Shown here: one piece after another, positions 11,760 through 16,939 of the stretch
Position numbering within the stretch: the stretch's first letter is position 1
How the letters are laid out: each line of letters opens with the position of its first letter
Origin: a virus
Length of the DNA: 46,412 nt
IMG/VR virus record: IMGVR_UViG_3300025849_002676
Span: 1 to 46,412 of that record
Strand: one strand, 5' to 3'
Translations under genes and position numbers: made by a program
Notes under the pieces: model-generated
What the model was told of the DNA's origin: nothing
Database searches by the model: none
Seen by the model: only the letters and a program-made list of their open reading frames with translations

Positions 11760-12306
11760 CTATAGCAAGGCAAAATGTGAAGAGTTTATAAAAAATGCTA
11801 ATCTAGATTATAAAGCACTTGAGAAAACTAAGCAGTGGCACAATAACGTAGATGCCACCCCTCATTTAATAGGACACTTTGGATCTATTACAGAACATCT
11901 AAAAGATGTGGTTTTAATCTTAAGCTTATTCCCAGGAAAGCAAATTAATATTCATGCTGATGGTGCTGGTACAAAACTCGATAACACATATAATGTTAGT
12001 ATCAATATACCTGTAAAAAATTGTACGCCACAAACCAAAACTGTATTTTGGGATTTTCCTGATGAGCGTGAAATTAAATATATTCACCATGAAAAATTAG
12101 GAACACGCCAAATCATCGATAAGGATCAATTGGAGCGTAAGTTCGAATACGTATTTGATGATACTGCTGTACTGTTTAGGAATGAATATCCACACAGTGT
12201 AGAAAATGAAAGTGCCGATCTGAGGCTTATGTTGTCTTGGAGATTTAAACCAGAATACTCGTGGGATCAGGCTCAGGAATTATGTGAGCGTCATTTCCTG
12301 ACATAA
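11728..12306 (+). CDS. aspartyl-hydroxylase-like 2OG-Fe(II) oxygenase 3, 192 aa
   Basis: NIHADGAG gives HxD; SINIPV is the core strand; YPHSVENES with LRLMLSWRF gives the distal His and Arg. The pattern repeats that of the preceding gene. The ATG at 11728 has GGAG 7 nt upstream, within the end of the preceding gene. The last 62 nt overlap the convergent sulfotransferase-like gene. Three paralogues in a row suggest related but distinct substrates. Confidence 0.72.
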   Translation: MKYIRELKHLNYSKAKCEEFIKNANLDYKALEKTKQWHNNVDATPHLIGHFGSITEHLKDVVLILSLFPGKQINIHADGAGTKLDNTYNVSINIPVKNCTPQTKTVFWDFPDEREIKYIHHEKLGTRQIIDKDQLERKFEYVFDDTAVLFRNEYPHSVENESADLRLMLSWRFKPEYSWDQAQELCERHFLT

Positions 12307-12694
12307 CGTAATGAGCAGATATTTTCCATTTTGAATACTCTTCCATTGACCGTTTGTAAACATCATCGTATAAATCCTTACCGGTTATTTGCAACAAAGA
12401 CTTTTTAACTAAATGCTTCTGTCGGTGAGAGCACACAATAGTATAGTTTTCTTTTACAAAATCGTATATTTCTGAATCTAGTTGGTTTAAGCTATGCCAA
12501 TGCCCGTGTAATATATGATTTTGCCCAAACACAATATCTTTTACATTGTAATCATTCTTTCCTAAATACTCAGGCTTATGTAGAACACCGTGCGCAGGTA
12601 GCTTACTATGTTCTTTTGCCATATAATCAACTAGTGCTTTAGAAGCTGTTCTTGGAAAACTGATTACTGCTATATTAGAAATTGTGTTCTCCAT
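12245..12694 (-). CDS. short sulfotransferase-like protein, 149 aa
   Basis: SFPRTASKAL at residues 12-21 matches the phosphosulfate-binding loop of sulfotransferases, and SHRQKHLVKKS near residue 89 resembles the 3'-phosphate-binding segment. The protein is about half the usual sulfotransferase length, so it may be a minimal or degenerate form. Its 3' end overlaps the convergent oxygenase gene. PAPS would be the donor; an APS-kinase-like protein is encoded at 20015-20452, but a link is speculative. Confidence 0.55.
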   Translation of the reverse strand: MENTISNIAVISFPRTASKALVDYMAKEHSKLPAHGVLHKPEYLGKNDYNVKDIVFGQNHILHGHWHSLNQLDSEIYDFVKENYTIVCSHRQKHLVKKSLLQITGKDLYDDVYKRSMEEYSKWKISAHYVMSGNDAHIIPEPDPTSILV

Positions 12695-13368
12695 AATAAT
12701 CTTTTTCCTTCAAAGGCCGAGCGCTTATGGATCATCTTTAAGTTGTCCCATAACAATATATCATTATCTTCCCAATGATGGATGTAAGAGTTTTCTTCAA
12801 TCCACTCTCGTATAGGCTCAACATTATATTCGTTGTTTCGCATAGTTGCTAGGCTGCAATACAGAATCTTTTCACCAGTAATATGGTGTTCTATATTAAA
12901 TTTACGCGTTATCTTTTGCTTGTTAAGAATCCGCAATTGCTTTTCTGTAAAACATTGTCCATGTAAATGTGTAGGAGGATAGTATTCTCCTTCGGCGTCT
13001 TGATACATATATCTAAGAGAATCTGGTGCCTTAGACATATCACAGAACCATGTAGGAGATCTCTGAGCATTGTTCACATTATAAAGTATAGTTCCAAAGT
13101 AATTGCCTCTACCATAACTCCAATCATGATGCCAATCTACTTCGCCATCACCAAACAAACCAACATCACTTAACTCTTGAACTGTTCGACCTTCGTTTAA
13201 AACATGTTTGTCAGTAACCAAGGGTTTACCAAGACTTTTAGTAATTGCTTCAAACTGTTCTAAGTTAAGAGGCTTCGGACATGAGACTTTCACAAGTCCA
13301 TTCTTCAACAAACTCTGCCTTAGGTCGTAGGCAGATTCCAGCTCTCCATAATTCACGGTCTCCAACAT
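12670..13368 (-). CDS. TauD/TfdA-like 2OG-Fe(II) dioxygenase (canonical HxD), 232 aa
   Basis: WHHDWSY gives the HxD iron ligands, and DNLKMIHKRSAF with LLWR gives the distal His and 2OG-binding Arg, the TauD/TfdA pattern. The ATG at 13368 is chosen because GAGGG lies 6 nt upstream; it still overlaps the upstream TauD-like gene by 104 nt. The overlap and shared fold suggest a duplicated pair. Substrate unknown. Confidence 0.75.
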   Translation of the reverse strand: MLETVNYGELESAYDLRQSLLKNGLVKVSCPKPLNLEQFEAITKSLGKPLVTDKHVLNEGRTVQELSDVGLFGDGEVDWHHDWSYGRGNYFGTILYNVNNAQRSPTWFCDMSKAPDSLRYMYQDAEGEYYPPTHLHGQCFTEKQLRILNKQKITRKFNIEHHITGEKILYCSLATMRNNEYNVEPIREWIEENSYIHHWEDNDILLWDNLKMIHKRSAFEGKRLLWRTQFLI

Positions 13369-14125
13369 ATGCATCCCTCTTATGTAAACTATGATGTTGG
13401 TCACTTAGTACAATATCATATGCATCCCACGTATGTGTAGAAGTATATTGTAAAGTATGTGATTTTAACATATAGTATAAATCGTGTTGTTCTTTATGAT
13501 CTAATCCGGTAAATCCTCGGATTACACTCCAAGGAAAGTACAGCCCTTCTTTTCCATTGATAGGATGCTTTGTTACAAGGTCCTTACGTGGGGTCTGTTT
13601 TTCAAAACTTGTCTTTCCATCAATGTCGCGAAACTCCATCATAGTTTGCTCATCACTAAATACATTTTTGTAATGCATTTTTTCTAATTTCATTGTAGCA
13701 TTATATGTCACTACTTTAGATTTTAATTTGCGGCAAAGATCTTTTGTCTCGTCATCTAAATCTTGCCAGGCACTTTGATGATCAGTAAAGTGGGTGTCTC
13801 CGCCAGATTCTGCAGGCTGATTCATATACATTGCCACAATATCATCATGGCCGGTTCTATTCATACCAGCGCTATGCCACTCAAGCTCACCATCATCTTT
13901 GCCAGCAAATAATCCATTCTGCCTTACTCTAACCAACTCACCGGTTGCTATAGTTCCGGTAACCTTATCATTTTGTTTTACTACATTACCAAGTTCTTTA
14001 TAAAAGGCAATAAGCTTTTCTGGTGAAACCGGATTTTTATTTTTTATGACAACCGTACGATGCTCGCCAACAAGCTGTCTAATACTAGAAGCATTGACTT
14101 CATCAATATTATTTACGACATGCAT
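13265..14125 (-). CDS. TauD-like 2OG oxygenase with HxA motif (halogenase-like or inactive), 286 aa
   Basis: TauD-like fold throughout, with the distal His at 248 (LHKR) and Arg at 257/261. The first iron-ligand motif reads W83-H84-S85-A86: the Asp/Glu of HxD/E is replaced by Ala. In Fe/2OG halogenases such as SyrB2 the same replacement frees a coordination site for chloride. It may therefore be a halogenase, an oxygenase with altered chemistry, or a non-catalytic paralogue of the next gene. It overlaps both neighbours. Confidence 0.7.
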   Translation of the reverse strand: MHVVNNIDEVNASSIRQLVGEHRTVVIKNKNPVSPEKLIAFYKELGNVVKQNDKVTGTIATGELVRVRQNGLFAGKDDGELEWHSAGMNRTGHDDIVAMYMNQPAESGGDTHFTDHQSAWQDLDDETKDLCRKLKSKVVTYNATMKLEKMHYKNVFSDEQTMMEFRDIDGKTSFEKQTPRKDLVTKHPINGKEGLYFPWSVIRGFTGLDHKEQHDLYYMLKSHTLQYTSTHTWDAYDIVLSDQHHSLHKRDAYVGDRELWRAGICLRPKAEFVEEWTCESLMSEAS

Positions 14126-14634
14126 ATTTCTTTCTCCATAATAAATTCGTTACTGTTTAGCGGAGTCCACATGAGATGTTGATAAACTGACAAACCATCG
14201 CTTCTCCATGCAATGTATTTATCGTCTGTTACGTGCCAACTTTGTGGCAAGAATTTCTTATAATGAAGAAAGGCCTGAGTCTTAGTTTCGCGACTCATAA
14301 AGGCGCAATCAAAATCTAGTATCTTGGCTATATCTAATTGTTGTTGAATCATATCTAAAGTGGTTTGAGATACTTTTCTTTTTTCATTTTCAAATCGTGC
14401 ATCAGGCGTTTTGTAAAATCTATTAAGAATTCGACAATTGTTTTCCCATATTGAACGATATGAAATAGAAGAAAATCCATTTTCGAACAAAGAAATTGCA
14501 ACCCAGTCTTCAGTATGTAAATTTTTATATCCATAGTTTTGTTTTAGTCTACCGTCAGGTATTTTTGATACCATCTGTTTAACGGCATCTAATGCAGTAC
14601 TAAATTTTGGATCAGTTCTAATAACCGTATTCAT
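14113..14634 (-). CDS. hypothetical protein, 173 aa
   Basis: The start at 14634 (MNTVIRT) lies 17 nt inside the end of the radical SAM gene; an upstream extension would overlap that gene far more. Mixed alpha/beta, soluble, rich in Lys and aromatic residues. I recognise no catalytic motif; an acetyltransferase-type fold is conceivable. Coupled to the TauD-like gene downstream by a 13-nt overlap. Confidence 0.6.
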   Translation of the reverse strand: MNTVIRTDPKFSTALDAVKQMVSKIPDGRLKQNYGYKNLHTEDWVAISLFENGFSSISYRSIWENNCRILNRFYKTPDARFENEKRKVSQTTLDMIQQQLDIAKILDFDCAFMSRETKTQAFLHYKKFLPQSWHVTDDKYIAWRSDGLSVYQHLMWTPLNSNEFIMEKEICMS

Positions 14635-15553
14635 GTTTTTTAACGTGCTCAAAAAATGGTGCAATAGTAAAATCTTCAGTAAGTCTTCCACGATTCGGAT
14701 TGTCGTGGTCAATAACTCCATCGTCATCAGTCTGCCAATCGATCAGTCGAATAAGGATTGTGCCGGCCTTTGATTTATATTTAAACATATATGAAGTTAA
14801 AGCTTCACCCGATTGTGGTCCAGCCTTCACTACTCCGGCAGATGTTTGAGACATATCAGATCTATTAACGCCAAGTTGACTTATACACAGATCAATTAAT
14901 TCATCCATATCGTAAGAAGAATTCTCCATGTACCGACCAATGGCTCCAACGGATTTCATCCTAAGAACCGGAGTTATTCTATTGTACGGAGTTGTTGTAT
15001 CGAAGTTGATACCATTTGCTATAGCTCTTTCGGCAAATAGCTCTATCTGTCTACCTAGCGTATGCTCATTGACGCCTTTAGCAATGATTGTACCAGTATT
15101 AATGGGTAATCGTTCAGCAAATATATTATCTAATGCTCTAACCTTAACAGTAGCCCAATTACCATTGTCAAGTTCTTTATAGGTTGCATTATTATCAGCG
15201 CCATTCATACTGTGAAGCAATAGGCGAAGCCCTGAATCCTTTAGCTTCTTAACATATGATCTATTAGCAAGCTTTAATCCGTTCGTCGTGACGCTAGGTC
15301 TATGGCCAAGTTCTTTTACTTTAGTAATAATTTCTGGTAAGTCTGTGCGCATAGTTGGTTCTGCACCAATTAAACGAATATATGTTCTTTCTGGAAGTCT
15401 CGATAAAAAATCATATAATCGATCTTTATCTAAGTCAGGCACATCCCTGTTTGGAATATAGCAGTTAGCACATTCCATATTACACCTGTGGGTTAGATCT
15501 ACCACAATATTAGTAAACGTGTTTTCTTCAGGTGTTAATTCAAAATAATTCAT
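14618..15553 (-). CDS. radical SAM protein, 311 aa
   Basis: CNMECANC (CxxxCxxC) near residue 29 is the radical SAM cluster motif, followed by RLIGAEPTM (GGE-like SAM-binding motif) and SVTTNG, a standard partial-barrel layout. Near residue 140 GTIIAKG continues the barrel. The C-terminus lacks a Cys-rich SPASM domain. It begins a minus-strand operon with the 173-aa protein and the TauD-like pair, a set able to do several radical oxidations in sequence. Substrate unknown. Confidence 0.88.
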   Translation of the reverse strand: MNYFELTPEENTFTNIVVDLTHRCNMECANCYIPNRDVPDLDKDRLYDFLSRLPERTYIRLIGAEPTMRTDLPEIITKVKELGHRPSVTTNGLKLANRSYVKKLKDSGLRLLLHSMNGADNNATYKELDNGNWATVKVRALDNIFAERLPINTGTIIAKGVNEHTLGRQIELFAERAIANGINFDTTTPYNRITPVLRMKSVGAIGRYMENSSYDMDELIDLCISQLGVNRSDMSQTSAGVVKAGPQSGEALTSYMFKYKSKAGTILIRLIDWQTDDDGVIDHDNPNRGRLTEDFTIAPFFEHVKKHEYGY

Positions 15554-15639: not shown

Positions 15640-16020
15640 TTAGAATGAGAAGCTTAGGCCCATAGAAATTTCTCCACGAGTACCGTCTTCAATATCATAC
15701 GATGTTTTGGCGTATGCTTCTAAAGAGTTCATCAACATCATTGATGCTTCAAGATCCAAAATAATATCATCAAATGCATTGTTTGCTACGAATTCATCAT
15801 CATATAGTTCTAAGTCAGTAGACATTGTAAAATCAATGTCTCTACCAAGAGCGAGTGTATAACCAACCTCAGGGGTAAGTGTAACGTTCATGTTTTCTGC
15901 GTCATATGTGTATTCAGAAACGATTTCACCACCAGCCGAAAAGCCCATGCCAAGATCAGCCGCAGATACAGCAGTAGTTGTTAGAAGAAGTGCGACAGAA
16001 GTGGCAACAAAATTTTTCAT
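15640..16020 (-). CDS. small secreted outer-membrane beta-barrel-type protein, 126 aa
   Basis: A 20-residue signal peptide with a VSA cleavage site (after Ala20) is followed by alternating polar and hydrophobic strands and a C-terminal LSFSF ending in Phe, the signal recognised by the outer-membrane assembly machinery. The mature part (about 106 aa) is short even for an 8-strand barrel. AAGGA precedes the ATG. It lies directly after the tmRNA terminator and before its own terminator. A role in altering the host surface, such as blocking superinfection, is inferred. Confidence 0.7.
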   Translation of the reverse strand: MKNFVATSVALLLTTTAVSAADLGMGFSAGGEIVSEYTYDAENMNVTLTPEVGYTLALGRDIDFTMSTDLELYDDEFVANNAFDDIILDLEASMMLMNSLEAYAKTSYDIEDGTRGEISMGLSFSF

Positions 16021-16039
16021 GTTAGTTCCTTAAGTTTGT

Positions 16040-16079
16040 AAAAAAATATGTGCCACTTTTCTGTTGCTAAGCAAGTGGC
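16040..16079 (-). terminator. terminator at the end of the tmRNA
   Basis: GCCACTT and AAGTGGC form a 7-bp stem (16073-16079 and 16052-16058) followed, after a few bases, by seven T residues on the minus strand. Confidence 0.8.
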
Positions 16080-16224
16080 CAGCTCCCTGTGATTATGCGG
16101 CTAGCGCAAATCCAGAAGGTGCAAAGTTATTGTTTGCAGTTAGTAGTTTTGACCAATAACGCAGTCATCCGGTAAACTCCACTTTCATCTTCACACCTGT
16201 CGATCCTATTTCAGCCCCATCAAA

Positions 16225-16269
16225 TTTACTCTACAAAGTAAATTATCAGTTTTTACTCTACAGAGTAAA
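16225..16269 (-). repeat. tandem hairpins in the tmRNA intervening segment
   Basis: Two 18-nt units (16252-16269 and 16225-16242) differ at one base; each folds into a TTTACT...AGTAAA hairpin. They lie exactly between the CCA end of the acceptor piece and the first G of the coding piece, where maturation must cut. Confidence 0.75.
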
Positions 16270-16350
16270 TTTGGTGGAGCTGCTGGGTACCGCCCCCAGG
16301 TCCAGAATGTGTCCACGTTGCTTCAACGTTTACGATTTATTTATTTAAAC

Positions 16351-16379
16351 TATCTAGATGTTCTGGGTATTTTTGTACA
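16351..16379 (-). promoter_or_regulatory. promoter of the tmRNA
   Basis: Minus strand TGTACA (16374-16379), 17-nt spacer, TAGATA (16351-16356). The predicted start lies near 16344, just ahead of the acceptor piece. Confidence 0.65.
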
Positions 16380-16409: not shown

Positions 16410-16643
16410 CTATTCAAACCAGAGTAGGAATTCCATACTTCCTGTAATCTTGTATAATACAAACATCAACATACAAAACCATATAAACCAAAACAAACCA
16501 AACCCTAAAGTTCGATATACCTTTTCCATTGGAAGATATTTTTCAAATAAGGTTTGAATGTCCCATACATATCTAAATTGTATGAACCAACAAAACCATC
16601 TTACATATTTGTTTGGCGTATTCTCTGGTGTTATCTTAGTCAT
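16410..16643 (-). CDS. small membrane protein, 77 aa
   Basis: One or two hydrophobic segments rich in Phe and Trp (about residues 45-72) after a basic, aromatic N-terminal part. The start overlaps the preceding stop (ATGA). It follows the SleB-type hydrolase and a DUF3310-like gene. A role in lysis, for example as a holin-like protein, is possible from the context, but it has no diagnostic motif. Confidence 0.65.
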   Translation of the reverse strand: MTKITPENTPNKYVRWFCWFIQFRYVWDIQTLFEKYLPMEKVYRTLGFGLFWFIWFCMLMFVLYKITGSMEFLLWFE

Positions 16644-16939
16644 AACGCTTCATCTTCACTATCATGGATATATAATTGGATAAGCGCATAATGGAGCACT
16701 TTCATTAAATCTTTTCTGGCATCAGTACGTGTACCTTTTTTACCATAACGATTAGAGTATTTGTCAACATTGCCCATACAGAAACCAGTTCCGTGACCAC
16801 GTTCAATAATAACTTCAGTTGATTGAAACTTGCTTTGTGAGTAATGTCCAGAATATGTTTTATCAATATACTCTTGGAACTCGGTAATAAGTTCACCCTC
16901 TCTAAATTTGTAATCAATGTTTTGTTTACTCAATTTCAT
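16640..16939 (-). CDS. DUF3310-like small protein, 99 aa
   Basis: The C-terminal half, GFCMGNVDKY followed by GKKGTRTDARKDLMKVLHYA, resembles the phage DUF3310 family, whose members are often near nucleotide-metabolism genes. Function is unknown. It shares its boundary base with the upstream sleB-type gene and overlaps the membrane protein downstream, so it belongs to the same operon. Confidence 0.6.
   Translation of the reverse strand: MKLSKQNIDYKFREGELITEFQEYIDKTYSGHYSQSKFQSTEVIIERGHGTGFCMGNVDKYSNRYGKKGTRTDARKDLMKVLHYALIQLYIHDSEDEAL

Follow-up and report, generated by a model that had tools for sequence, protein, structure and literature searches.

Does a marine bacterial virus that carries a split tmRNA gene make use of the segment that separates the two RNA pieces, and if so, for what? 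The question is raised by a locus in IMG/VR record IMGVR_UViG_3300025849_002676 (positions 1 to 46,412, the whole stretch being referred to here as the window), in which a sequence-only reading had placed a complete permuted two-piece ssrA gene of the alphaproteobacterial type on the minus strand. The call was borne out by ARAGORN, which reports a permuted tmRNA at 16002-16366 (-) with the tag ANNNFAPSGFALAA, and by two Rfam covariance models. The alpha_tmRNA model (RF01849), proposed in that reading as a check, matched at 16384-16049 (-) with 106.3 bits (E 3.6e-28; threshold 50), and tmRNA_permuted (RF04321) matched at 16333-16093 (-) with 120.9 bits (threshold 47).

The predicted anatomy also held in its particulars (Table 1). 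An acceptor piece ending in CCA comes first, followed by an intervening segment of exactly 53 nt and by the coding piece, which begins with GGGG; CAGCTCC and GGGGCTG pair at all seven positions and include the G3-U70 alanine identity pair; and the tag frame has a resume codon, a hydrophobic ALAA end, and a stop codon. Piece order, T-loop, acceptor stem, and tag position are those of the alphaproteobacterial two-piece tmRNA described by RF01849, from which the window gene differs in its lower score, a post-tag region shorter than the model's, and a phage-specific tag.

Table 1. Features of the tmRNA locus and its immediate neighbors in the window
Feature	Coordinates	Strand	Basis
DUF3310 protein gene	16640..16939	-	Pfam PF11753; syntenic in many loci
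77-aa single-pass membrane-type ORF, just upstream of the tmRNA	16410..16643	-	tblastn, dN/dS
Acceptor piece (T-arm, 3' acceptor strand CAGCTCC, ACCA; the 3' half, tRNA-like domain)	16272..16333	-	RF04321 start 16333 (mature 5' end approximate); CCA end 16272
Intervening segment, 53 nt, presumed excised	16219..16271	-	Sequence, fold
Coding piece (5' acceptor strand GGGGCTG, GAAAUAGGAUCGAC, pseudoknot region, resume codon, tag, 3' hairpin)	16049..16218	-	RF01849 match end 16049
Tag reading frame GCA...TAA, ANNNFAPSGFALAA plus stop	16093..16137	-	ARAGORN
3' hairpin GCCACTT...AAGTGGC of the coding piece	16052..16079	-	Sequence, fold; aligns with RF01849 3' end
126-aa protein, signal-peptide-like start, directly downstream of the tmRNA	15640..16020	-	Homologs

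One further contig (L281) has a tmRNA gene identical to that of the window, and close variants of the tag occur in many viral contigs. Across the viral loci the 7-bp acceptor stem covaries, with the reservation that pairs 1 to 4 were partly fixed by the search pattern; among the viral relatives, the T-stem shows compensatory changes and the pseudoknot region a GAC/GUC to GAU/AUC covariation. An LAA end was found in 177 of the 205 viral tags read with a procedure that demanded a final AA. Since pairing and tag are both conserved, comparative evidence argues that the window tmRNA works in trans-translation.

Several accessory claims of the sequence-only reading fared less well. The T-loop, described as abnormal for its lack of TTC, reads GGCGGUA, which is the RF01849 consensus, and the supposed anomaly was therefore rejected. 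A promoter of the gene's own received no support: sigma-70-like sites were no commoner than in shuffled sequence, and the T4-like late motif TATAAATA was not enriched and was absent upstream of the tmRNA gene, so that neither candidate rose above chance. As regards a terminator, the hairpin and the U7 run are indeed present (T7 at 16046-16040, 5 nt beyond the 3' hairpin), but the hairpin lies within the conserved 3' part of the alpha-tmRNA, gave no terminator call, and is followed in the sibling contig L304 by a broken U-run, making a dedicated terminator doubtful. The idea that the phage runs its own ribosome rescue was overstated, because no SmpB gene was found in the 46-kb record, itself a fragment; host SmpB is presumably used.

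The assignment to a T4-like phage was supported by genes in the window for DNA polymerase, sliding clamp, SbcC/D-like recombination nuclease, late sigma factor, and DnaB-like helicase. At the protein level the nearest annotated relatives are the marine myophages Phage C48C1, Melnitz, and HTVC008M, all labeled Kyanoviridae; a pattern search of the 80-125 kb region of HTVC008M found no permuted tmRNA. The gene order helicase, thymidylate synthase, cell wall hydrolase, DUF3310 gene, tmRNA is repeated in many divergent viral contigs, the DUF3310 gene being a frequent upstream neighbor of the tmRNA in this phage lineage. Homologs of the 126-aa protein likewise lie downstream of the tmRNA in four other contigs (L039, L221, L229, and L261); the protein had no match in Pfam or PHROG. 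Beside the tmRNA region, at 12245-15553 (-), two TauD-family dioxygenases and a radical SAM protein are clustered, possibly for the modification of phage or host molecules.

A permuted tmRNA in a phage is not in itself the novelty it had been taken for. Two-piece forms have been reported from marine phages, including Melnitz, and make up 53 of 133 unique phage tmRNA structures, 50 of the 53 being from marine or aquatic phages (PMC9004378); the tmRNA database holds 79 unique bacteriophage tmRNA sequences (PMC11915505). The window gene is thus a further case of a reported type. What looks new is the spacer.

The 53-nt spacer of the window consists of two tandem copies of a self-complementary unit, AATTTACTYTGTAGAGTAAA, and folds into a single hairpin of 20 bp with UGAU behind it (minimum free energy, -17.4 kcal/mol; z -5.4). 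This hairpin is continuous with the acceptor stem (z -7.0), and its perfect helix could serve as an RNase III substrate; owing to the two copies of the unit, a pair of smaller hairpins is also possible. The spacer contains no ORF, and the cargo in the window phage is thus the hairpin only, in contrast with L304 and many other relatives, in which a gene is nested at the same place.

The comparison with L304 is evidence that the contents of the spacer are exchanged. The flanks of the two phages match at 96.4% over 4.26 kb on the upstream side and at 96.8% over 0.93 kb on the downstream side, and their coding pieces are 100% identical, whereas the spacer of L304 is an unrelated sequence of 140 nt that contains an ORF of 45 codons. 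Compensatory changes separate the two T-stems (CUGGG/CCCAG versus UCGGG/CCCGA). Cassette replacement has thus taken place between near-identical phages. The same pattern recurs more widely: of the 78 pairs whose coding pieces reach 93% identity or more, 46 have spacers less than 60% identical, although many of these pairs share members and hence do not represent independent events. The converse is found in L015 and L020, with spacers 99% identical and coding pieces 63% identical.

The 77-aa ORF upstream of the window tmRNA illustrates both positions that such a gene may occupy. It lies outside the spacer in the window, L303, and L304, and in tblastn searches its homologs sit exactly between CCA and GGGG in L305-L320 and L086; dN/dS against relatives is about 0.06-0.14. 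The string TAGTGTGATTATAAT after the window ORF was considered as a vestige of a former spacer end, an idea abandoned since in L304 this string stands ahead of a different small ORF. In L304 part of the DUF3310 gene's 3' end is repeated downstream of the 77-aa ORF (L304:4243-4287), a mark left by local recombination next to the tmRNA.

To place these cases in a wider frame, we collected 287 viral loci with both tmRNA pieces, comprising 208 distinct intervening segments; the contigs were gathered by short conserved motifs and by a query with the neighboring 77-aa ORF and are not a random sample. The spacers are hypervariable, ranging from 5 to 499 nt (median, 80 nt; n = 208). An ATG-initiated ORF fills 52 of the 87 distinct spacers of at least 90 nt (start no more than 30 nt from CCA, at least 25 codons, at least 60% of the spacer covered), compared to 4.7 expected from dinucleotide shuffles, and 44 of 77 when the loci fetched by the ORF query are left out. 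In this reduced set, a Shine-Dalgarno-like motif precedes 35 of the 44 ORFs, and the stop codons fall at recurrent positions: 1 nt before the spacer end in 13, 12 nt before it in 9, and inside the coding piece in 12, where they coincide with the conserved UAG of GAAAUAG at 13 nt. Pairwise dN/dS was about 0.04-0.39 in the six spacer ORF families tested, a range indicating that these families are under protein-level purifying selection. All seven acceptor pairs are retained at 75 of the 76 loci whose long spacer contains an ORF, a count to which the reservation about pairs 1 to 4 applies. The same spacer ORFs also occur as normal genes elsewhere in related phages; the 120-aa spacer ORF of L030, for example, is an ordinary gene elsewhere in Melnitz. 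A search of the nested small-ORF families against PHROGs gave no useful match, and no intron or homing-endonuclease family was seen among the spacers searched.

Since Melnitz (MZ577097) is a phage in culture whose genome is complete, the spacer ORFs are not solely an effect of metagenome assembly. As in the window, its ssrA is a permuted two-piece gene of alpha type in a T4-like marine myophage, with a similar RF01849 score (106.7 bits) and a spacer closed by an inverted repeat (TAAACAC...GTGTTTATGAT). It differs from the window in the glutamine riboswitch that lies downstream and in the content of the spacer, which is 142 nt long and holds an unannotated 54-codon ORF (L326:3254-3480) in place of the 53-nt hairpin. 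This ORF (MFKWLSKTRLVVITRDYFRERNRKADAKIPKYLSG...; peptide MFKWLSKTRLVV...) begins in the spacer and would continue into the coding piece; the text of the Melnitz paper makes no mention of spacer content, the word "intervening" being absent from it (PMC9004378). A 62-aa gene directly upstream of the Melnitz tmRNA has homologs inside the spacer in L225, L231, L240, L279, L289, and L035. Other cultured phages have spacers without a clear ORF: RcXuper, vB_RpoS-V10, MAL1, and Phosso span 98-410 nt, with 98-111 nt in the roseophages and the Rhodobacter phage RcXuper and 410 nt in the Sinorhizobium phage Phosso. In the roseophages MAL1 and vB_RpoS-V10, a GOLLD RNA (RF02032) was observed upstream of the permuted tmRNA at a distance of a few hundred bases (L122:2403-2866 and L462:552-985).

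Outside the ORF criterion there are 99 distinct viral spacers of at least 40 nt, forming 59 sequence clusters, a few of which carry later-starting ORFs (the L069/L085/L096 family). Some of the ORF-less families recur with different tags. With the closing helix removed, the folding signal of the ORF-less spacers is weak on average (mean z -0.5), and most are therefore not shown to be structured RNAs. No known Rfam family was found in a spacer in the scanned loci; at gathering thresholds, 15 spacer-bearing loci gave only tmRNA, tRNA, and GOLLD matches, none within the spacer. Relaxed ARAGORN runs returned only scattered low-grade tRNA matches, and the MAL1/MD18 spacer has a T-arm-like hairpin and no convincing tRNA.

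Host spacers were examined for comparison. Most were 7-57 nt long, with a few longer. In a motif-selected set their median was 27 nt, and in 23 further alphaproteobacterial genes, chosen to include the three longest among the matches listed from a 240-genome survey, most measured 9-67 nt and three 104-232 nt. No clear small ORF was found in the host spacers examined. A closing helix, initially considered a phage-only feature, was dropped as such because similar helices occur in some host spacers.

Taken together, these observations make it very probable that the phages carry an alpha-type two-piece tmRNA whose spacer is a slot for exchangeable cassettes, with CCA on one side and GGGG on the other. 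In the model we propose, a single precursor would be transcribed through acceptor piece, intervening segment, and coding piece, and would fold by pairing of CAGCUCC with GGGGCUG, the intervening segment forming a long helix stacked on the acceptor stem. By analogy with Caulobacter, host tRNA-processing enzymes would then excise the segment, RNase P cutting before GGGG and 3' maturation taking place at CCA; the characterized two-piece tmRNAs on which this analogy for cleavage and spacer release draws are cited in PMC9004378 and PMC11915505. The two base-paired pieces would receive alanine, associate with SmpB and EF-Tu of the host, and add ANNNFAPSGFALAA to nascent proteins on stalled ribosomes. 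The contents of the slot are a 20-bp hairpin in the window, small protein genes starting just after CCA in some relatives, and segments of 40-130 nt without an ORF in others. On the most parsimonious view, cargo is simply tolerated in the spacer: an insert at this place would be absent from the mature tmRNA, and selection on the tmRNA would thus not oppose it. The nested ORFs may be translatable from the precursor or from the released fragment.

A stronger version, in which expression of the cargo is coupled to tmRNA maturation, is possible but doubtful. For the ORFs that stop at the conserved UAG (12 of 44), the RNase P cut before GGGG would remove the stop codon and leave a nonstop message, whose product would be tagged by the same tmRNA in an autoregulatory loop.

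The simplest alternative to a cargo slot is that the gene is an ordinary phage copy of host ssrA, acquired by recombination, with a spacer of neutral filler in which ORFs are chance or passing insertions. tmRNAs are common targets of recombination and integration, the window spacer has no ORF, and host spacers too are variable in sequence. Filler is nevertheless hard to reconcile with the excess of ORFs in long spacers (52/87 against 4.7), their dN/dS values well below 1, their occurrence as normal genes elsewhere in related phages, and the conservation of some spacers across divergent tmRNA bodies, and we consider this account unlikely. Still less can be said for a decaying or nonfunctional relic. 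The covariance scores of 106-121 bits, far below those of host genes (about 230-312 bits among those listed), and the shortened post-tag region would fit decay, but the tag, acceptor stem, G3-U70 pair, and CCA are intact, the T-stem changes are compensatory, the coding piece is 100% identical in two phages with flanks 3-4% apart, and the location is conserved across divergent phages; a relic is accordingly very improbable.

A comparably slight chance attaches to the gene being an inhibitor or decoy that titrates SmpB instead of rescuing ribosomes. The precedent is the RNA of mycobacteriophage DS6A, which consists of the tRNA-like domain only and titrates SmpB (PMC4131195, PMC11915505). The window gene does not belong to such a class, because its coding piece is complete and includes both a stop codon and a conserved tag.

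The reading of the spacer as a cargo slot has few parallels. The nearest precedent, and the sole spacer cargo of such kind that we found in the literature, is a permuted tmRNA whose intervening sequence contains a tRNA-Ala gene, in GCA-2688965 sp002688965 (PMC11915505). There the cargo is a tRNA in a nominally archaeal genome bin, whereas the phages described here carry protein genes as exchangeable cassettes. Group I intron tmRNA genes that carry homing endonuclease genes (PMC11915505) likewise have protein genes inside a tmRNA gene that are absent from the mature RNA; in that case a self-splicing intron interrupts the T-loop, while the phage insert lies in the natural spacer of a permuted gene. 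In open-access full texts, to which the search was confined, we found no description of a swappable spacer slot for small genes.

If the cargo-slot reading is correct, phages can house small genes within a split RNA gene with next to no cost in genome length, and the output of small proteins may be tied to maturation of the ribosome rescue RNA. It would also explain why standard tools miss these genes, as with the unannotated Melnitz ORF and the many spacer-bearing viral loci at which ARAGORN called no tmRNA. The nested small proteins are candidate host takeover or lysis factors, and the noncoding spacers are candidate new phage RNAs.

The searches also yielded observations on other contigs. 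Four Acidobacteria-labeled bins (L148, L165, L167, and L185) contain a tmRNA with a Hyphomonas-type tag, ANDNFAEGELLAA, which suggests misbinned alphaproteobacterial contigs. Six Saccharibacteria-labeled contigs (L125, L129, L136, L178, L184, and L187) match the T-arm pattern with the permuted coding piece absent nearby; these are probably one-piece tmRNAs with the same T-arm. Lastly, the tags of L041, L120, and L118 are unusually long, at 29-31 codons, yet retain a YALAA or FALAA end, for example, AKATINNGEFTFVNFGALNDFAVNEDFALAA.
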